Shown here: in pieces, positions 4,535 through 48,073 of the stretch
How the letters are laid out: each line of letters opens with the position of its first letter
Numbering within the stretch: the stretch's first letter is position 1
Source of the DNA: Carboxylicivirga sp. M1479
Lineage (GTDB): Bacteria; Bacteroidota; Bacteroidia; Bacteroidales; Marinilabiliaceae
DNA length: 64,000 nucleotides
Direction: 5' to 3'
Assembly: GCF_007097485.1 (NCBI RefSeq)
Contig: NZ_VKDE01000020.1
Coordinates: 62,001-126,000 of the forward strand
Translations under genes and position numbers: made by a program
Notes under the pieces: generated by a model
Seen by the model: only the letters and a program-made list of their open reading frames with translations
Database searches by the model: none
Told to the model about the DNA's origin: nothing

Positions 4535-6013
4535 ATGAATAAGTGTATAATTAGTAAATACTGCTTTATATTTTACTTATTGTGCTTTACTCCTATTATT
4601 CAAGGACAAATAACTTCCATACATCAACAAAATATTTCCCTGGAGGCTCTTTTTGATACTCTTACAAACAAAACTGATATTGATATTGCTTATGATGTTA
4701 GTGCTATTCCACAAGATAGCATCATCAGCGTATCAGCAGATAACCAACATGCTTTGCAAATAGTACAAAATGTGCTAAGCAAAGTAGCTGTTGACATAAC
4801 GTACACAAATGGGCAAATTATCATTAGCCGATACATTGTTCAAAAAAAGGAAGCATCCAAAACACTCCTGATTAAAGGGCGCGTATGTGACGCCGAAGGT
4901 GGCTCTCCATTACCCTTGGTTAATGTTGCATTCATCAACAAACCAATGGGTTCAATTACCAATTCCGAAGGTCAGTTTGAACTAAAAGTACCCAACAATT
5001 ACATTGGAGAAAAAATAGGTTTTTCATTCTTAGGATACCACAGCACACAAATAACAATTGCCGATGCAGATACTTTATTGGAAATAGATCTGAAGCCGAC
5101 CACAATCAAACTTAACGAAGTAGAAATAAGCTACAAAAAACCCGATGACATTATTCAGCAACTTCGCTACCACCATCATCAAAACTACTTTAACCAGCAA
5201 AACATACTGGAGAGTTTCTTTCGCGAATCCATCAAGCAAGATGACCAGTATGTTCAAGTTTCAGAAGCAATTATTGAAATAGTTAAACCCAGTTACATCA
5301 CTCCATCCAACTTAGAGCGCGTCAGATTCATTAAAGGCCGTAAGAAAAACGACTTACAGTCTATGGATTTTGTGGATTTTAAATTAGAGGGAGGTCCATT
5401 TCAATTCTCAAGGGTTGATATTGCCCGATATCAGGATTTTTACAAAGAAAATAATAGCACTTACAAATACCAATACGATGGTATAGATGTATTAAATGAT
5501 GAAATCGTTTATAAGGTCCGTTTTCGCCCAATTAACGATGATGGAAACCTTGTGTATCAAGGCATTCTCTACGTGCACTCCGAAAGCTTTGCCTTGGTTA
5601 GAGCTGAATTTCAATTGACAAAAAAAGCGCTACGTATCAGTGGGCGGGCTTTAATCAGAAAGGCTTCACGAAAAATAAAAGCCAAACCGATAAAGGCATC
5701 CTATTTCATTGATTATCGTCAATATGAAGATAAGTGGTTATTAAATCGAATACATGGACACATTGTTATTCACATCAATGATAAGCGCCATAAAATTGAT
5801 TCTGAATTCTCAGCTGTAACAGAGTTATTAGTTAGCAGCTTTGAGCTTAACAGTAAATATAAGCTTAAACCATCGGAACTCTACAAATCCAAGTATGTAT
5901 TAGCCGATGAAATTAAAGTAACTGATGAGGAATTTTGGAAAGACTATAACATTATTAGGCCAGATGAAGCTCTGGAAAATGTTTTTAAACAAAGTAAGGT
6001 TGTTTCCAAATAA
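4535..6013 (+). CDS. STN domain plus carboxypeptidase-regulatory-like domain protein, without TonB barrel
   Basis: A signal peptide (cleavage near IIQGQ) is followed by a secretin/TonB short N-terminal (STN) domain at about 30-100 and a carboxypeptidase-regulatory-like beta sandwich at about 112-190 (IKGRVCDAEGGSPLPLVNV). Residues 200-492 are beta-rich and begin with a motif seen in many Bacteroidota CarboxypepD-reg proteins (FFRESIKQDDQYVQVSEAI). No TonB plug or 22-strand barrel follows; SusC-type receptors exceed 900 residues. The gene lies 112 bases after fecR, the usual site of the signal-transducing receptor. It probably acts as a periplasmic or outer-membrane signal input to FecR. The ligand is unknown. 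Confidence 0.82.
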   Translation: MNKCIISKYCFIFYLLCFTPIIQGQITSIHQQNISLEALFDTLTNKTDIDIAYDVSAIPQDSIISVSADNQHALQIVQNVLSKVAVDITYTNGQIIISRYIVQKKEASKTLLIKGRVCDAEGGSPLPLVNVAFINKPMGSITNSEGQFELKVPNNYIGEKIGFSFLGYHSTQITIADADTLLEIDLKPTTIKLNEVEISYKKPDDIIQQLRYHHHQNYFNQQNILESFFRESIKQDDQYVQVSEAIIEIVKPSYITPSNLERVRFIKGRKKNDLQSMDFVDFKLEGGPFQFSRVDIARYQDFYKENNSTYKYQYDGIDVLNDEIVYKVRFRPINDDGNLVYQGILYVHSESFALVRAEFQLTKKALRISGRALIRKASRKIKAKPIKASYFIDYRQYEDKWLLNRIHGHIVIHINDKRHKIDSEFSAVTELLVSSFELNSKYKLKPSELYKSKYVLADEIKVTDEEFWKDYNIIRPDEALENVFKQSKVVSK

Positions 6014-8357: not shown

Positions 8358-8391
8358 AAGGCCTTAAGCACAAAACTTAAGGCCTTTTTTT
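8358..8391. terminator. Bidirectional intrinsic terminator
   Basis: An 11-base perfect inverted repeat (arms 8358-8368 and 8376-8386, 7-base loop) is followed by seven T and preceded by an A-rich run. It lies between convergent genes and overlaps the stop codon of the minus-strand gene. Confidence 0.85.
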
Positions 8392-9598
8392 AAATCATAT
8401 CAGCTATCCGTTGATCCAACTCGACTTGATCTTTTTCAAAGGCTTTTAAACCTGCAGCACTCAACAAGGCATCAATTCCAACAGTGTAATTCTCAATTCG
8501 GCTGTTCCAATAATCATGCTTAGGTATTTTACCATCACTCGCCAATAATTCATTTTCCTCATCGGTAAATTCGGGAAACAAATTATGACAACCTAAATCA
8601 TTAAGTAATTCCAATACCTGACTCTGATTATCTGGTAGCTTATTCGACATTTTGATGGCTGCATTTTTCTCCTGATCGCTAACTTGCCACAAATGCTTTA
8701 AGTTATATTTCACAATTAGCGCTTCGTCACAAGCAAATTCTTGCTCAGTAGTTGCTGTCATTAACTCATTTGATTGTGCTTCAGCAACCACTTTCCAGGG
8801 AATTGTTAGTACATCAGCTCCCATTAAAGAGTTTAACTGCTCTGCATTTCGGATACTTGCTACAATCAACTGACATGATGAATAGCCTTGCTCACTAACT
8901 TTTCTCATACAATGCAGAGTGGAGTCAACCACTTTTTTACCCACTCCATGAATATCGGCTAACTCAGGATGAGTAAAATAAGCATCAAGCCTACTCAAGA
9001 AAACATTTGAGTATGATGGTTTGGCCACCATCGAAGCTATTACATTTTGACGCGTACTAAACCCAAGCGTTAAATTAACAGGCACACCCTCATCGTGCAG
9101 TCGCTTTGCACTTATTAATCCCGATGCCGTTAAAGGCACTTTTATGATAAAATGATTTCCTCCAATCGTAAAAAGCCGTTTAGCTGTTTGAATCGTTCCC
9201 TCAATGTCATTCGCCAGTTGAGTATGAAGCTCAACACTAACCTTACAGTTAAACACTTTAGCCAAACACAATCCATGTATCGCATTAATACATAAGGATA
9301 TCTCTCTCACTTTCTCATCTATTGGCAAACTGGATAGCTGCTTCGATAGATCATTAATGACTTTATCATACTTTCCTTTCTGCACCTCAATATTAATCAA
9401 GGTATTATTGGTAGTTAATGCAGTAAACTCTTCTGTCCATAAGGTCTTTGCTTTTTCCAAATCCCCAGTATCCATCCACAAATGGCTTCCATGCAATAGA
9501 AAATTAGACCAAAAACTAGATTTGGAATAGTTTTGTGCTTTTAAATTGTATCCTTCTACAATGTTGTAGAGAACTGTATTAGATATTGGATATTTCAT
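8390..9598 (-). CDS. Transaldolase-family protein
   Basis: The C-terminal two thirds match the transaldolase/fructose-6-phosphate aldolase barrel: TTNNTLINIEV in place of the classic TTNPS loop, the Schiff-base lysine in FIIKVPLTASGL, NLTLGFSTRQ, and a YSNVFLSRLDAYF segment like the phosphate-binding SPFVGR-D region. At about 400 residues it is longer than FSA (220) or TalB (315), with extensions at both ends, so the substrate is uncertain. An in-frame ATG at 9619 would add seven residues (MKANYNN), but those codons belong to a repeat that also precedes two unrelated genes. I therefore prefer the ATG at 9598. The gene is monocistronic. Confidence 0.78.
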   Translation of the reverse strand: MKYPISNTVLYNIVEGYNLKAQNYSKSSFWSNFLLHGSHLWMDTGDLEKAKTLWTEEFTALTTNNTLINIEVQKGKYDKVINDLSKQLSSLPIDEKVREISLCINAIHGLCLAKVFNCKVSVELHTQLANDIEGTIQTAKRLFTIGGNHFIIKVPLTASGLISAKRLHDEGVPVNLTLGFSTRQNVIASMVAKPSYSNVFLSRLDAYFTHPELADIHGVGKKVVDSTLHCMRKVSEQGYSSCQLIVASIRNAEQLNSLMGADVLTIPWKVVAEAQSNELMTATTEQEFACDEALIVKYNLKHLWQVSDQEKNAAIKMSNKLPDNQSQVLELLNDLGCHNLFPEFTDEENELLASDGKIPKHDYWNSRIENYTVGIDALLSAAGLKAFEKDQVELDQRIADMI

Positions 9599-9703
9599 AT
9601 TATTATAGTTTGCTTTCATTTGTCAGATGAAACTCTCAAGTAAGTTTTATCATCCCCATGAAAGCCAATTTGGATAATGAAATTTACATACTTGTTTCAT
9701 AGA
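9594..9703 (-). repeat. Hairpin-leader repeat, copy A
   Basis: Imperfect 32-base inverted repeat (arms 9624-9655 and 9672-9703) around a 16-base loop. Towards the gene follows a tail that on the minus strand reads CAAATGAAAGCAAACTATAA and runs into the ATG at 9598. Homologous to copies at 20314-20420 and 47399-47506. Confidence 0.85.
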
Positions 9704-21515: not shown

Positions 21516-24500
21516 ATGCAGACCACCACCCCAATTAACAAGTTATTAAGAACAGCTTGCCTGACTTTATTCGCGATAACATTGCCTAGTTTTTTGTTAG
21601 GACAATCGTTGATTATTACCCATAGTTTACCCACTTCTATTAACGAAGGAGATTCAGGAAACAGCTTTTCTGTTGCATTGTCAGATGCTCCGACAAATAA
21701 TGTGGAAGTTGCGATCAATTCAGACAATTCAGACTTAAGTTTTAGTTCCACATCACTCACGTTTGATAACACCAACTACTCCACAGCTCAAACGATTACA
21801 TTCACTGCCAATGAAGACGCTGATCTAGTTTATGAAAATGACCCTATCACTATATCAGTAGTTGATGCCAATAGTGATGCAGCATACCATGGTAAAGCAC
21901 AAAGTATAGCACTTACAATTAATGACAACGATATTGCGGGATTAATTATTACAGGCGGACCTTTTGATATCGACGAAAACACGACAGGACACTCCTTTAC
22001 TGTTGCATTAAATGCTCAACCACAAACAGACGTACAAATAGCTATCTCATCTTTAAATGCGGATATCATCTTTTCGCCTGCCACACTAACTTTTACAAAT
22101 AGCGATTGGGCGGCCAAAACAGTAACTTTCGATGCTCCAGAAGATGATGACCTCATTAGTGAAAATGAACCAATCAGCATAGCAGTTTATAATGACAATA
22201 GTGATGATGATTTTGATAACTTATCACAAAACATTAATCTTACAATTACAGACAACGATATTGCGGGATTGGTTATTACTGGAGGCCCCTTTACTATCGA
22301 CGAAAACACGACAGGACACTCCTTTACTGTTGCATTAAATGCTCAACCACAAACAGACGTACAAGTAGCTATCTCATCTTTAAATGCGGATATCATCTTT
22401 TCGCCTGCCACACTAACTTTTACAAATAGTGATTGGGCGGCCCAAACAGTAACTTTTGATGCTCCTGAAGATGATGACCTCATTAATGAAAATGACCCAA
22501 TCAGCATAGCAGTTAATAACCCGAATAGTGATGATGATTTTGATAACTTATCACAAAACATTAATCTTACAATTACAGACAACGATGTTGCTGGATTAGT
22601 TATTACTGGAGGACCCTTTTCTATCGACGAAAACACGACAGGACACTCCTTTACTGTTGCATTAAATGCTCAACCGCAAACAGACGTACAAGTAGATATC
22701 TCATCTTTAAATACGGATATAATCTTTTCACAAGCCACACTAACTTTTACAAATAGCGATTGGGCGGCCAAAACAGTAACATTCCCTGCACCTGAAGATG
22801 ATGACCTCATTAGTGAAAATGATCCAATCAGCATAGCAGTTAATAACCCGAATAGTGATGATGATTTTGATAACTTGTCACAAAACATTAATCTTACAAT
22901 TACAGACAACGATGTTGCTGGATTAGTTATTACTGGAGGACCCTTTTCTATCGACGAAAACACGACAGGACACTCCTTTACTGTTGCATTAAATGCTCAA
23001 CCGCAAACAGACGTACAAGTAGATATCTCATCTTTAAATACGGATATAATCTTTTCACAAGCCACACTAACTTTTACAAATAGCGATTGGGCGGCCAAAA
23101 CAGTAACATTCCCTGCACCTGAAGATGATGACCTCATTAGTGAAAATGACCCAATCAGCATAGCAGTTAATAACCCGAATAGTGATGATGATTTTGATAA
23201 CTTATCACAGAACATTAATCTTACAATTACAGACAACGATGTTGCTGGATTAGTTATTACTGGAGGACCCTTTTCTATCGACGAAAACACGACAGGACAC
23301 TCCTTTACTGTTGCATTAAATGCTCAACCGCAAACTGACGTACAAGTAGATATCTCATCTTTAAATACGGATATCATCTTTTCGCCTGCCACACTAACTT
23401 TTACAAATAGCGATTGGGCAGCCAAAACAGTTAGTTTTGATGCTCCCGAAGATAATGACCTCATTAGTGAAAATGAACCAATCAACATAGCAGTTAATAA
23501 TCCGAATAGTGATGATGATTTCGATAATTTATCGGAAAGTATTACTCTTACAATTACAGACAACGATGGTGAATTAACAATCTCACAATCAACGGATGGC
23601 ACAGAAGGTGGAGCCAATGGGTCGTTCAGAATTAGTACTTCAAGACAATTTCCAAGCCCAACCAATATTACTGTTACTACATCTTCTAATTCAGCTACCA
23701 TTGGTGATGATTTTACCATTGCAGCAATTCAATTAGCGGCCAATTCAGATTACATTGATGTACCAATTACTATAATTGATGATGTCCTAGTTGAGTCGGA
23801 TGAAACAGTGACAATAACACTTGACACAGAAGACAGCGACTATGCAATAATTGGAGCGCTCAATAGTACAACTCTTACCATTGCAGACAACGACATAGCA
23901 GGGTTAACAATAACAGGAGGACCATTTACAATTAACGAGGGTACAACTAACAATAGCTTCTCGGTTGCATTATCAGCACAACCTTTAACATTTGTGGAGG
24001 TTGACATGAGCTGTGTTAACCCCGACATAGTCTTTTCTCCAGTCTCATTAACCTTTACTAATGCTGATTGGTCTGCTAAAACAGTCAATTTTTCTGCAGC
24101 GGAAGATAGTGATCTTTTAAGCGAGTCGGATCCAATCAACATAACTGTAGATAACAACAATAGCGATGATGCATTTGATAACTTGACCGAAACGATTAAT
24201 CTTACTGTTAGTGATAATGATGCTGCAGGAATAGTTATTACTGGGGGACCGTTTGATATTAACGAGGGGGTAACTAATCAGATTTTTAATGTTGCTTTAG
24301 CAGCACAACCTGCCAATAATGTTGTTATTGACATCTCATCAAACAATACAGACATAGCTTTTACACCTAACTCATTAACGTTCACTAACGCCGATTGGAG
24401 TAATCAAGAAGTATCATTCGTAGTTAATGAAGATGCTGACCTTATTGATGAAGCTGATCCTATTGTATTAACTGTTAATAATGGAAGTAGTGACAATGCA

Positions 24501-27500
24501 TTCCATGACCAATCATCAATTGTTAACCTAACGGTAAGAGATAATGACCTTGCCACTTTGAGCATTGCTCCAACGACCCACGCAGCTGAAGATGCAACAT
24601 CTGGCTTATTCACAATCAATGCTTCACAGGAAGTTTTAGGCAATGCAGACATCACCTTACTCATCACAGGTTCGGCCAGCATGGGTATCGATTATGAGAC
24701 CATAAGTAGTCCAATTACCATGTTGGATGGCTCCAGCTCTGTTTCTATTCCTATCAATGTAATTTCCGATAACTTACTTGAAGGTACCGAATCAATTACA
24801 ATAGAATTAAGTTCGGTAAACAATGCCAAAGCCGGCATTAGTACAGGAGCTGATAACACCGCCACAATCAACCTAAATGATAATGAAACGGCAGGTATAG
24901 TCATATCACAGTCCGCATTTCAAATAAATGAAGGTAGTAGCAATCACACATTTAACGTTACGCTGCTCTCACAGCCCCAAAGTGATGTTATTGTAGATCT
25001 ATCGAGCGACAATACAGACATCACTTTTTCACCAGCTTCATTAACATTCACGAATGGCAACTACGGCGATCAAACCATAACATTTAGTTGTATTGAAGAT
25101 GATGACCTAATTGGCGAATCTGCTATAATTACAGCAATGGTCAACAACCAGAGCAGCAATAATCTTTTTCACGATCTAAGCTCTGCTGTCAACATCAGTA
25201 TTGATGACAATGATACTGCACCAGTTTTTGAATCATCACCTCAAACAACAACAAACGAGGATGCTGTTTATACTTACAATATTAACATATCCGATATTGA
25301 TGGAGATATTCCCGTAATTTCCTTAGTGACACCACCGGACCCAAGCAGCACGTGGCTAACATTAACTGACAACACAGATGGTACAGCGCTACTAACCGGA
25401 ACACCACTTCAGGCAGATGTAACTCCTTCTGGCACTCCATTGGCAGTAACCATCCGAGCACAAGATGATTTAACTTTCACTGAGCAATCGTTCAACATTA
25501 CCGTTAACAATGTCAACGATTCGCCACAAATTAGTAATAGTTCATTCTCAACACCTGAAAATCAAGCTTTGACAATTAGTCTATCTAGCTTTGCCAGTGA
25601 TGAAGATGGAAATCTTGATGCATCAACACTAATTGTTACCTCAGGTCCTGATAATGGAACTGTTGACATTGATCCATCATCGGGTGAAATTACCTATACT
25701 CCCAATAGTACATTCTCTGGAGACGATAGTTTTAATGTTCAAATTCAGGATGAAAATAATGCTTATAGTAACGTAGGAACAATTACCATAACGGTATCCA
25801 ACGAAGCACCTACGGCTAATGATGATAGCTACAACATCAACGAGGATGAAGCTCAAATATTTAATGTTTTAGACAATGACGTTGATCCTCAGAATAATTT
25901 AACATTTTCTTCTCTGGTGATTGTCGACAGCCCAGCCAAAGGAACAGCTGTGGTCAATACCAACGATGGAACCATCACATACACTCCTAATACCAACGAA
26001 AATGGTGATGACAGTTTCACCTATCGCATTTGCGATGCTGGCAACTATTGCGATCAAGCTGAAGTAACAATATCAATTGCATCAATTAATGATGCTCCAA
26101 CGGTTAATGACGACAGCTACACGCTTAATGAAGACAATACACTTGAACTTGAAATCCTTGAAAATGACAATGATATAGATGGACAACTCGATGAAAGTTC
26201 GTTAAGCATCGAAACGCAAGTACAGTATGGAACTTTAACTGTCAATACCAATACAATAAGCTATACTCCAAATCAGGATTATAATGGTTCGGATAGCTTT
26301 ACCTACTCTGTTACCGATAACGAAGGACTAACAGAAACAGCAATTGTTCAATTAACCATAAATCCGGTGAATGACGCACCGATAGCTGTGGATGATGAAG
26401 GAGTAACATCTGATAATTCATCTATTGAAACCAATGTACTTGACAACGATGTTGATGTCGACAACAACATTGATTTATCAACTCTAACTATTATCACTCA
26501 GCCAATCCATGGAGAAGTAAGCATCAATAACAACACCGGTACAATAACCTATGAACCAGATCTTAATTATTACGGCTCTGATTCGTATCAGTATCAGATT
26601 TGCGACACTGATGGGGAATGTTCCACTGCCACTGTTCATTTAACCGTAACTACTGGCAATGCTAAACCCATCACCAACCCAGATTGGGTATCAGTTGATG
26701 AGGATATGGAAATAACTATTTCTCCATTGGCCAATGATTCAGATCCTAATGGGAATCTGAATTTTAATAGCCTGAGTATTATTCGTGAACCAGAGCACGG
26801 CAGCCACACTCTACAAACTCAAAACCAAACCATTAAATACGTACCAAACAGCGATTACTACGGAAATGATACCATTGTTTATTCAATTTGTGACCTAGAA
26901 CAACTTTGCGAACAAGACACCATATTCATTGGGGTACTTCCGGTTAATGACGCTCCTATTGCAGTTAATTATCAATTAAATGTAACAGAAGGAACGCCAG
27001 AACAAATAAACTTAGCAGCACTGGGTACCGACATTGAAATGGATGTTTTAAGCATCAGCATTTCTGATGATTCACCAACTGTAGCAGGTGTGATTGAAAT
27101 CATTGACAATACAACACTCCAATTCACGGCAAACATTGGATCCTTATGTACTAGTTTTGATATTTTTTACTTATTAACCGATGCCAAAGGTGCTTCTACT
27201 AAAGCGACAGTTACAGTAAACGTCAGTCCATTAGATTCAGATAACGACAACATACCTGATGCCACAGAAAATAGTGGTGACAACGAGCTAGACACAGATA
27301 TGGATGGTTCGCCTGATTATTTAGATGAGGATTCTGATAACGATGGTATTTCCGACTTAATTGAAGGTGGGATTCAAGATTTATGTAACGATCAAGCACA
27401 TGATACCGATAACGATGGAACTCCCGATTACTTAGATGCTGACTCTGACAATGATTTGGTATCTGATAAAGAAGAAGGAGCCGAAGACTGTGACAACGAT

Positions 27501-27830
27501 GGCATCCCAAATTACATCGATAACTTTGATGATTGCGCTTCCAGGGCAGAAATAGATATCCCCGAAACTTTTACTCCTAATGGAGACAACGTAAACGATT
27601 ACTTTGTTATAAAAGGTGCAACATCTGATGAACTTAAAAACAACGAATTATTCGTTTACAACAGATGGGGCGGACTAGTATATAACATGGTTAATTACGA
27701 CAATACATGGGATGGCTCATCCAACTCCGGAAGCATGGGAAGTGAAGTTCTGAGTGAGGGTACTTACTTTTATGTTTTCAAAGCTCAATCGGGCATTACA
27801 ATTAAAGGAACGGTATACATTAAGCGATAA
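21516..27830 (+). CDS. Giant repeat adhesin with type B T9SS sorting domain
   Basis: A 2104-residue secreted surface protein. After the signal peptide ([10 protein letters not shown]) come about ten Calx-beta-like units. Five are tandem 109-residue copies at 21936-23570, of which the third and fourth are identical in protein. Cadherin/Ig-like tandem domains follow from about residue 1240 (typically [35 protein letters not shown]). Next are thrombospondin type 3 calcium-binding repeats ([26 protein letters not shown]). The C-terminus is a gliding-motility-type sorting domain ([14 protein letters not shown] to GTVYIKR). Its stop overlaps the start of the PorP/SprF gene, which is the usual partner of type B cargo. 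The Asp-rich repeats suggest calcium-stabilised rods. Confidence 0.92.
21936..23570 (+). repeat. Five tandem 327-bp coding repeats
   Basis: Period of exactly 327 bp (109 codons). The copies starting near 22590 and 22917 differ at only three bases by eye, all synonymous. Outer copies are more diverged. Confidence 0.9.
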
Positions 27831-33808: not shown

Positions 33809-34315
33809 ATGAAAAATTTAAATAATCTAAACGCAAAATCTATTTTAAGTGCATTGTTCCTTTCATTAATTATCTCAATTAGTTTGGTTGCTCAACCAAG
33901 TGAATATATCGCCGACGAAAGTGAAATGGATTTAACTGTTGAAACATGGATGACTGATCTTAATTCATTTGACAATGATGAATCCGAAATGGTAATTGAA
34001 GACTGGATGACTGATTTAAATAGCTTTTACTATGAAGAAGCCGAATTATTAGTTGTTGAAGACTGGATGACCGATTTGGAATCATTTAATATAGGTGAAG
34101 ACTACTCAATGGAAGTAGAACTTTGGATGACTAGCTTGGATGAATTCTATTGCATTGAATCATTTCTATTGGCCGATGCCGATGAGGCTGTATTAGAAAT
34201 TGAAGAATGGATGACTGATCTTACAGCATATGGGAAAGTAAGTGCTTCAGAAATAGAAGGAATTAAGGATATAGATTTTAGTTCAGATGAAGTAATACTT
34301 GTTGCGCTTAAGTAA
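33809..34315 (+). CDS. Small secreted acidic protein with WMTDL repeats
   Basis: A 168-residue protein with a signal peptide (FLSLIISISLVAQ). The mature part is very acidic and is built from five imperfect units of about 20-25 residues centred on E-x-WMTDL-x-SF (ETWMTDLNSF, EDWMTDLNSF, EDWMTDLESF, ELWMTSLDEF, EEWMTDLTAY). No catalytic motif, sorting domain or lipobox is present. The regular Trp and acidic spacing suggests a repeat solenoid or amphipathic helices that bind cations or a membrane. Family and role are unknown. Long upstream region and its own terminator: monocistronic. Confidence 0.8.
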   Translation: MKNLNNLNAKSILSALFLSLIISISLVAQPSEYIADESEMDLTVETWMTDLNSFDNDESEMVIEDWMTDLNSFYYEEAELLVVEDWMTDLESFNIGEDYSMEVELWMTSLDEFYCIESFLLADADEAVLEIEEWMTDLTAYGKVSASEIEGIKDIDFSSDEVILVALK

Positions 34316-47378: not shown

Positions 47379-47506
47379 AAATGAAAGCAAATTAACAACA
47401 TATGAAACGACCATGTAAATTTGATTATCCAAATTTTCACACAGAAGGATGATAAAATATACTTGAGAGTTCCATATGGCAAATGAAAGCAAATTATAAT
47501 CATATG
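47379..47506 (+). repeat. Hairpin-leader repeat, copy C, with duplicated flank
   Basis: Arms 47399-47430 and 47447-47478 (both ending CATATG at the outer edge) around a 16-base loop, then a tail running into the ATG at 47504. The 16-base string AAATGAAAGCAAATTA occurs on both sides (47379-47394 and 47481-47496), 102 bases apart. Confidence 0.88.
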
Positions 47507-48073
47507 AAAAAGTTAGTATTTATAACACTCTTATTTGCCTCAAGCGCTATGGCCATTGGTGGTAGTTCAGTGAATTACGAACACAAAGCCATTCACAAAA
47601 CGCTTATTAAAACCTGCAAGCTCATCAACCCAGAACTGTTGGAAATGAACATACCAACCGAGGTATCGAGTAAGATGGAAGGTAAGTTTTTTAATATACA
47701 GAGTGATAATACTAATTCAGAAATAACACATTGCTACATTGGACGTGTGAACAGTTGCCGAGCCGGCGGCTGTTCTGCGCCAAGTGCAAATCCAATTGGA
47801 GGAGATTCAGAATACTTCGATTACATGGTTTTCTACAACCATAAACACGAGGTGGTACTGGTTAAGGTTTTTAATTATCAGGCCAGCCATGGACATGAAG
47901 TAACGGCCAAAGGGTGGCTTAAGCAATTTATAGGCTATGATGGTAAAGATGAAAAATTAGAAGTCGGCCGAAACATTGATTCCATTTCAGGAGCTACCAT
48001 TTCTGTTAATGGTATTACCTCAGATATTGAGAACAAAACAAAAATCTTAGAAAGTCTGGCTCAAAAAAGCTAG
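47504..48073 (+). CDS. Secreted FMN-binding-domain protein (covalent flavinylation motif)
   Basis: The start at 47504 places Met directly before the signal peptide KKLVFITLLFASSAMAIGG; an in-frame ATG at 47483 belongs to repeat copy C. The mature 170 residues end with the FMN_bind motif DSISGATIS, which fits the D-x-x-[ST]-G-A-T site where ApbE links FMN to a Thr. NSCRAGGCSAPSANPIGGDS carries two Cys. The gene lies directly after a porin, with no ApbE or membrane redox partner in the window. Likely a periplasmic flavin electron carrier. Its stop overlaps the stop of the convergent dinB gene. Confidence 0.87.
   Translation: MKKLVFITLLFASSAMAIGGSSVNYEHKAIHKTLIKTCKLINPELLEMNIPTEVSSKMEGKFFNIQSDNTNSEITHCYIGRVNSCRAGGCSAPSANPIGGDSEYFDYMVFYNHKHEVVLVKVFNYQASHGHEVTAKGWLKQFIGYDGKDEKLEVGRNIDSISGATISVNGITSDIENKTKILESLAQKS

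Follow-up and report, generated by a model that had tools for sequence, protein, structure and literature searches.

What is the hairpin repeat that runs into the start codon of an FMN-binding-domain gene of Carboxylicivirga sp. M1479, and how did it come to stand before unrelated genes? We analysed the repeat in the window, a stretch of 64,000 nucleotides (contig NZ_VKDE01000020.1, positions 62,001 to 126,000), in the genome to which the window belongs (G000; 5.44 Mb, 130 contigs) and in related genomes, using G numbers for genomes, C numbers for contigs and L numbers for loci. An earlier note on the window had described three copies of the hairpin (A, B and C) and a diverged relative (D), and had offered two explanations, an element like a miniature inverted-repeat transposable element (MITE) or a structured leader forming a regulon. 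Our sequence comparisons suggest, with a probability that we put at about 0.7, that the repeat is a non-autonomous derivative of an insertion sequence (IS) of the IS110/IS1111 family, here termed IS-A, and that it recombines at ATGAA by means of a recombinase supplied in trans.

A repeat unit bounded by ATGAA

The repeat is a unit that starts with ATGAAAC and ends immediately before the next ATGAA. Most units measure 99-103 or 88-91 bp, outliers range between 70 and 150 bp, and they form two subfamilies of about 102 bp (long) and about 90 bp (short) that often stand in tandem in G000. The units found in the window, with scores of the covariance model R1 described below and flanking open reading frames (ORFs), are as follows.

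9599..9700, minus strand: unit A, long subfamily; abuts the ATG (9598-9596) of a transaldolase-like gene (8390-9598; Pfam TAL_FSA); R1, 97.8 bits
20316..20417, minus strand: unit B, long subfamily; boundary ATATAAAAAAA, without a start codon; R1, 106.5 bits
45452..45551, minus strand: unit E, diverged; boundary ATGAAATATATAA, without a long ORF; repeat search and R1, 44.4 bits
47379..47401, plus strand: remnant tail of a further unit directly 5′ of unit C, AAATGAAAGCAAATTAACAACAT followed by ATGAAAC; repeat search and BLAST match to the tail
47402..47503, plus strand: unit C, long subfamily; abuts ATG 47504 of the FMN-binding-domain gene (47504-48073; weak Pfam match to FMN_bind); R1, 124.4 bits
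60530..60616, plus strand: unit D, diverged, assigned to the short subfamily by eye; abuts ATG 60617 of a nitronate monooxygenase gene (Pfam NMO)

Copies A, B and C lie where the earlier note had placed them, each with exactly 16 loop bases, and their repetition was confirmed. D is a diverged relative of A-C on reading its sequence; it was not among the R1 matches, nhmmer matched its tail alone, and for its 5′ half we relied on reading by eye. Unit E, a fifth window copy found by repeat search and covariance model, is absent from that note. The genes behind A, C and D are unrelated, as had been claimed, with Pfam matches to TAL_FSA, FMN_bind (22.3 bits against a cut-off of 22) and NMO. Other claims held for the window copies but not for the family: the fixed 32-16-32 design is present in A-C, but the real element is the unit of variable length; the tail ends at the ATG in A, C and D, but that of B reads TTGAACGCAAA and not ATGAAAGCAAA and ends at ATATAAAAAAA; and the in-frame ATG seven codons upstream occurs in A, C and D but is no family feature, because an ATG 18 to 24 nt before the boundary is found in 9 of 26 aligned units and is in frame in 6 of them. 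The 32-base arms contain 21 (A), 21 (B) and 24 (C) Watson-Crick pairs, and the maxima in three mononucleotide shuffles of the window were 21, 19 and 21. The arm pairing of A or B alone is within chance; what is exceptional is the repetition of the sequence. Two inverted repeats of the window, I1 and I2, comprise 127 and 110 nt at 79% and 90% identity.

Further copies, on which the earlier note had made its reading depend, are abundant. A BLAST search of G000 with copy C, in which the best 40 of 111 candidates were scored, gave 52 matches, 41 of them (C included) nearly full length among the matches listed; at least 40 other matches had E-values of 5e-25 or better, A and B among them, and units 96-98% identical to C are present at other loci. 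R1, built from an alignment of 26 units of the long subfamily (A2), gave at least 147 matches at E ≤ 1 in G000, including members of the short subfamily at lower scores, with the best 150 of 5121 candidates scored (genome searches with R1 and with the model R2 both score the best 150). Terminal inverted repeats with a target-site duplication were not found in the unit: ATGAAAC and GTTCCAT are inverted relative to each other, with the 3′ copy about 27 nt from the end, and the ATGAA core is the sole sequence common to unit boundary and target. By structure, the unit is not a classical MITE. In the 90-bp units at L009, L028, L031, L032 and L070, the tail carries an additional palindromic insertion, CCCGATAAATCGGGACAAGTAGTGG or a near variant.

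Unit ends resemble those of IS-A

A transposase end that matches the unit was looked for and found in IS-A, which encodes PF01548 and PF02371 in its G059 copy and PF01548 in G000, and which lies between units in G000 arrays. IS-A itself is present in G000, G059 and G039, and a relative in G030. Its layout, a short left end that spans about 84 bp and some 190 bp of non-coding sequence downstream, is that of the IS1111 group as set out in the available portions of the bridge-RNA and seekRNA papers (PMC11208160, PMC11187229). The left end of IS-A starts ATGAAAC..CCATG..ACACAGGnGnATGATTATT, as the unit does, and the first approximately 50 bp of the unit and, more weakly, its tail resemble the IS-A ends. 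We assessed the significance of these similarities with 1000 dinucleotide shuffles, using consensuses assembled by eye. For the IS-A left ends of G000, G059 and G051, none of 1000 shuffles scored as well against either of the two G000 unit consensuses, and R2 matched the left end of G051 (26.9 bits, E = 0.0019), a genome that itself has no unit match. The right end was equalled by 10 and 0 (C40 copy) and by 118 and 6 (C65 copy) of 1000 shuffles when compared with the units of its own genome, G000; the corresponding values were 3 and 9 for G059 and 25-30 and 94-286 for G051. As read by eye, IS-A copies end at ATGAAA in G000, G059, G039, G051 and G030, and this target is common to the IS and the units. 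A homology of the unit to the downstream non-coding RNA of IS-A that had looked convincing by eye was dropped after the shuffles. The IS-A relative of G030 stands at L125 directly against an ORF that starts ATGAAA; from its first residues, this ORF may encode an Erm-type rRNA methyltransferase.

G030, which represents a different genus of the same family, Marinilabiliaceae, has an IS-A relative at 55% amino acid (aa) identity and 117 matches to R2, though BLAST showed none there. Its units carry CACAAAAGAACATGTATAAATTT where G000 units carry CACACAGGAGGATGATTAAA, and their tails end GAGTTAAATAAATTATATACGA; at the corresponding places the G030 IS-A reads ACAAAAGAACATGTAATTT and GAGTTAACTAAAATAATTACGA. 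Compared with the units of G030, the G030 IS-A scored z 7.1 at the left end (0/1000 shuffles) and z 3.6 at the right end (3/1000). Against G000 units, z was only 0.8 to 1.5 for the left end (105 and 214 of 1000 shuffles) and -1.7 to 1.2 for the right end (153 and 986), and a longer left-end stretch was equalled by 329 and 507 of 1000. Conversely, the G000 and G051 left ends reached z 3.0 and 3.9 against G030 units and 5.0 to 11.8 against G000 units. The C40 right end represented G000 in this two-genus comparison. Judged by these scores, IS ends and units changed together in the two genera. Because they did, the unit is most likely a transposase-less IS110 derivative that is moved in trans.

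Target site and start codons

We took on 126 of the 147 R1 matches in G000, and 17 were without sequence, leaving 109 units with flanks. Their 3′ neighbours were an ORF start codon (63; ORFs counted from 60 aa), another unit (20), an IS-A left end (9), the left end of a second IS110-type element, IS-B (6), or other sequence (11), and the host bases at the 63 starts were ATGAAA (50), ATGAAT (7), ATGAAG (5) and ATGAGA (1). In the window, ATGAA[AGT] outside units occurs at 19 possible starts, at 24 other intergenic and at 159 intragenic positions. Leaving out units followed by a unit or IS, a start codon adjoins 63 of 74 G000 units, compared with 19 of the 43 non-coding window sites (44%); because of this excess, the start-codon habit of G000 is more than the loss of gene-breaking insertions alone would give. 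In G043, 15 of 19 units abut an ORF (of 33 units, 8 unit-followed and 6 within a MITE with terminal inverted repeats were left out), but in G030 only 9 of 21 abut an ORF of at least 60 aa (24 unit-followed of 45 left out). A universal start-codon preference, which holds in G000 and G043, was therefore rejected on the G030 count. The habit follows mainly from the use of ATGAA as target, and selection or a longer target may have reinforced it. In the native sequence to the left of 77 first units, only a mild preference is visible.

IS-B, 1.37 kb long and beginning MFMQVYGIDLSMEKFDV, was recognised by eye in G043, G005, G015 and G066, and its right end, again by eye, stands 5′ of units in G000. 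All nine copies examined (L111, L112, L115, L117, L119-L122 and L144) abut ATATGAAA at an ORF start, and a simple motif test found a unit ahead of only three of them. IS-B shows that IS110-type elements use ATGAA start codons as targets irrespective of units. The non-coding region upstream in IS-B holds the complement of ATATGAAA, and a stretch before TTTCATATTAAG resembles, by eye, the left flank of the respective copy; flank and guide changed together in two copies, to AATGAGAT in G015 and to TTGTTGTTAT in G066. This region looks like a natural bridge RNA that is addressed to start codons, with natural re-addressing.

Polymorphic sites and distribution

Comparison of orthologous loci for empty sites showed that most are empty in congeners. 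At the nitronate monooxygenase locus of unit D, inspection by eye found a unit within 220 bp 5′ of the orthologue in none of 13 congeners; at a 6PGDH locus, 11 of 12 congeners are empty and G012 has an independent unit at the identical start codon, of the long subfamily and thus not of the one seen in G000. A glycosyltransferase gene that is 96% identical between G000 and G006 is preceded by the right part of IS-A and a unit in G000 and by neither in G006. The 24 empty starts at the nitronate monooxygenase and 6PGDH loci read ATGAA (10), ATGCA (12) or ATGGA (2) by eye. Because occupied starts read ATGAA and most empty ones do not, part of ATGAA may be delivered by the element itself. Identical units stand at three G013 loci, and units 96 to 98% identical at three G034 loci. 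In G014 (L185:2443-2547 and 5156-5258), two RAYT-like (Y1) genes are, by eye, each broken by a unit near the 5′ end, with TTGAAAAG as the inferred empty site. On these comparisons, the repeat is a mobile element.

A scan of named genomes matched the unit pattern in Labilibacter marinus Y11, L. sediminis CG51, a Carboxylicivirga metagenome-assembled genome (MAG) and a Bacteroidales MAG. Units had no match in plasmids by BLAST or in viral contigs with one pattern, phages being outside these searches. Rfam 15 gave no match on the unit in the window and ten loci at the gathering score or in four loci at E ≤ 1.

The internal segment covaries with the unit junction

The internal GTTCCAT-N1N2N3 of the unit is complementary to its own junction N3′N2′N1′-ATGAAAC with one conserved C-A mismatch, and the 5′ AUGAAAC and the 3′ GUUCCAUNNN, which covary, fit the junction apart from one mismatch. 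In all 26 rows of A2, the base 3′ of GTTCCAT forms a pair with the final base of the unit (AU 12, GC 8, CG 4, GU 1, UG 1), and none of 500 shuffles reached the covariation score of this pairing; in A3, an alignment of 14 rows of the short subfamily, the pairs are AU 7, GC 5 and other 2, with 3 of 500 shuffles reaching the score. The G030 triplets, drawn from 30 loci of the 117 matches, are TCG/CGA (26), CAG/CTG (8), CCG/CGG (5) and TAG/CTA (1), and 40 of 45 are fully complementary compared with 18.2 expected if independent. At loci other than those of G030, Watson-Crick pairing was present in 39 of 42 cases when a unit or IS-A follows (19.0 expected), in 74 of 80 when a gene follows (28.7 expected) and in 13 of 15 other cases. 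Because the pairing is kept without a gene following, it belongs to the unit and not to the regulation of a gene. The covariation score of the main hairpin was reached by 0 of 500 shuffles, and four of its pairs changed on both sides (equalled by 43 of 500); RNAalifold predicted both the main hairpin and the tail stem on A3. The internal segment may act as a self-addressed guide or as a structural pairing.

Weighing the explanations

As the mechanism, we propose that the unit would retain approximately the first 50 bp of the IS-A left end and a short right end without the recombinase gene, and would undergo directional recombination at the short core ATGAA. Integration at ATGAA would give the flush ends at ATGAAA start codons, at other units (hence tandem arrays) and at IS copies. 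IS-A or a relative would supply the recombinase in trans, presumably on a circular intermediate, and GTTCCAT-N1N2N3 would act in excision and insertion, either as their guide or through a structural pairing. The MITE-like alternative of the earlier note is thus upheld in substance, but without the terminal inverted repeats of a classical MITE and with a likely parent of the IS110/IS1111 type.

Several results weigh against this derivation. R2 is weak on other IS-A left ends (17.9 bits, E = 0.16 in G000; 14.4 bits, E = 0.96 in G059; G030 unlisted), the right-end similarity is modest (3 to 118 of 1000 shuffles in G000, G059 and G051), and the similarity of the unit to the non-coding RNA of IS-A is not significant, with 22, 38, 45 and 104 of 1000 shuffles as good for the short subfamily and 338 to 534 for the long one. 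The copies are related, so the covariation counts are not independent events; in A3, a control slid by +2 gave a higher covariation (0.147) than the structure (0.114), and A3 alone proves little on this point. RNAalifold on A2 predicts the tail stem only and misses the main hairpin, and the RNA folds of four units have z-scores of -0.81, -1.82, -1.88 and -2.11. IS110-type seekRNAs are described as having the bottom-strand match 5′ and the top-strand match 3′ of it (PMC11187229, available portion); the unit has this IS110-type order but IS-A has the IS1111 layout, and a simple fit is lacking. We treat the shared order as a lead, given the mild preference in the left native flanks and the one fixed mismatch. 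The presence of an IS110 gene is also a weak predictor of units: PF01548 was found in 15 of 34 unit-bearing genomes (those with a BLAST unit match, for which the per-genome counts are lower bounds with the best 8 candidates scored each) compared with 19 of 66 others, leaving 19 of 34 without the gene, and PF01548 is missing from the single-contig G002 as well as from G034 and G013, which have near-identical units. Draft assemblies may lack multicopy IS and the few units of G002 may be old, or another recombinase could be the mover in genomes without an IS110 gene.

A bolder version of the proposal, which we regard as possible but tentative, is that units are self-addressed guide-RNA parasites, each a small IS110-type guide RNA with its own ends. 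A transcribed unit would recruit the resident recombinase, its GUUCCAU-N1N2N3 would recognise both ATGAA targets and the junction of the unit's own circle, each subfamily would carry and evolve its own address, in keeping with the covariation of N1-N3 with the end, and ATGAAA starts would be genome-wide landing pads common to units, IS-A and IS-B. The opposite possibility, that units are an independent REP-like repeat merely used as a landing site by IS110-type elements, has parallels: ISPa11 and the IS1111 of Coxiella reportedly use REP-like repeats in this way, and 20 of 21 annotated IS1111 copies are given as lying at QMITE2 in the available text of PMC5896051. It would also account for IS-A (9 cases) and IS-B (6) both standing at G000 unit boundaries and for the unit-bearing genomes without a PF01548 match (19/34). 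We consider it unlikely, given that IS-A ends resemble units and co-change with them between genera, that the G051 IS-A has a unit-like left end in a genome without a unit match, and that IS-B abuts ATATGAAA at the ORF start in 9 of 9 copies with a unit ahead in only 3.

The other alternative of the earlier note, a structured RNA leader or translational switch defining a regulon, in which GUUCCAUNUG would pair with the 5′ AUGAAAC or with CANAUGAAA of the gene and mask the start codon, could draw on the start-codon excess (63/74 units compared with 19/43 non-coding ATGAA[AGT] window sites) and on the AUG-masking alternative stem, which is conserved with compensatory changes and is the sole stem that RNAalifold predicts on A2. 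This reading is weakened, and we now hold it to be rather improbable, by covariation that is the same whether the unit precedes a gene, another unit or IS-A, by units that are polymorphic, tandem and beside unrelated genes with mostly empty orthologous loci, by the G030 units, only 9 of 21 of which adjoin an ORF when not unit-followed, and by the lack of an Rfam match to the unit. Units may have a regulatory leader role in places, and expression effects are possible, but this is probably not the origin of the family. An origin from a REP/RAYT or IS200/IS605-type (Y1 HUH) element, with the internal segment as a cleavage-site guide on the bottom strand, fits by eye in its strand logic (native TTTCAT at the left end, GTTTCAT at the right end and a complementary segment inside), and Y1_Tnp genes were found in 50 of the 60 relatives searched. 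A PF01797 search over the 60 relatives with inspection of 50 loci found no Y1 gene flanked by units: nhmmer placed units at only 1 of 50 Y1 loci, where they interrupt RAYT-like genes. G013, G024, G027 and G028 bear units but lack the gene, and 19 of the 24 genomes from other families have it, which leaves this origin very improbable. The imperfect hairpin, the symmetrical outer boxes ATGAAAC/GTTCCAT and the tandem arrangement also recall attC sites of an integron-type cassette array. The integron core has the consensus GTTRRRY, which GTTCCAT misfits, the unit boundary lies at ATGAA and not at GTT, and units are scattered over the genome; on boundary and core alone, no integrase search having been made, we ruled this idea out as scarcely credible.

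Relation to known systems

Units share with IS1111/IS110 elements that use seekRNA or bridge RNA the similarity of their left ends and, modestly, of their right ends, the ATGAA target (of IS-A), directional insertion and short segments matching both junction strands. They differ in having no recombinase gene, in measuring about 90 to 105 bp as a whole, in their more than 100 tandem and dispersed copies, and in an internal segment that matches the element's own junction. Mini-IS with a left end (LE) of 50 bp and a right end (RE) of 46 bp, or LE 29 and RE 16 bp, were moved with transposase and seekRNA encoded outside, as reported in the available portion of PMC11187229; because mini-IS that small were moved, a unit of about 100 bp is a plausible substrate. 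The portions of PMC11208160 and PMC11187229 available to us do not mention a natural non-autonomous derivative or MITE, and the literature searched, in part and with subscription papers, preprints and ISfinder outside its scope, yielded no description of a miniature IS110 derivative that occurs in nature.

Among other small repeats, MITECca01 of Cardinium is likewise short, transposase-less, of high copy number and derived from a resident IS, but its parent is an IS982-family element with terminal inverted repeats (PMC9769881, available portion), whereas units are IS110-type and their inverted segment is internal. QMITE2 of Coxiella resembles units as a small structured repeat entered by an IS1111-type IS at one place; its origin is called indeterminate and its location mainly 3′ untranslated and intergenic in the accessible part of PMC5896051, whereas units resemble IS-A ends and are often 5′. 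TIGR arrays, from what is accessible of PMC12045711, are also tandem guide-like units of a family related to IS110 RNAs, and UG...CCA boxes recur by eye in the unit arms, which is a lead only; TIGR guides are, however, 36 nt long with variable spacers beside a Tas gene, whereas units are near-identical, dispersed and mobile.

If the proposed derivation is true, RNA-guided IS110 recombination would have natural non-autonomous passengers, each about 100 bp long, which attain more than 100 copies and rewrite 5′ leaders genome-wide with the start codon itself as target. Their many natural target choices and guide/end co-changes would allow the rules by which donor and target are recognised to be read from sequence, and they would account for a class of assembly breaks and of unexplained hairpin leaders in these bacteria.

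Further observations

In G000, contigs C39, C41, C45, C50-C53, C57-C60, C62-C64, C67, C68, C72, C74, C81, C87, C88 and C98 end or start within about 270 bp of a unit; IS-A or IS-B sequence, which stands beside units at the contig ends that were read, probably broke the assembly. G043 C3 (L058-L063, L078-L089) contains an element of about 320 bp with terminal inverted repeats (AGTGGCTGCAAGAAAACGACTG.. / ..TTTTCTTGCAAAGACTA) that encloses one or two hairpin units and a short ORF, ATGAAAGCTTCAAAG. Twelve G043 matches of at least 97%, six of which were read, belong to this element; here the hairpin unit is captured by another miniature element and has spread along with it. A group II intron (D1-D4, RF02001) lies at L062:2381-2537 in G043, about 0.9 kb downstream of a unit pair.

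Two coding regions of the window are themselves repetitive: an ORF of 2104 aa (21516-27830) contains 327-bp tandem repeats in seven to eight copies that are 61 to 91% identical to the reference copy, and tandem coding repeats of 57 to 60 bp (..DWMTD..) occupy 33939-34219 in ORF 33809-34315.
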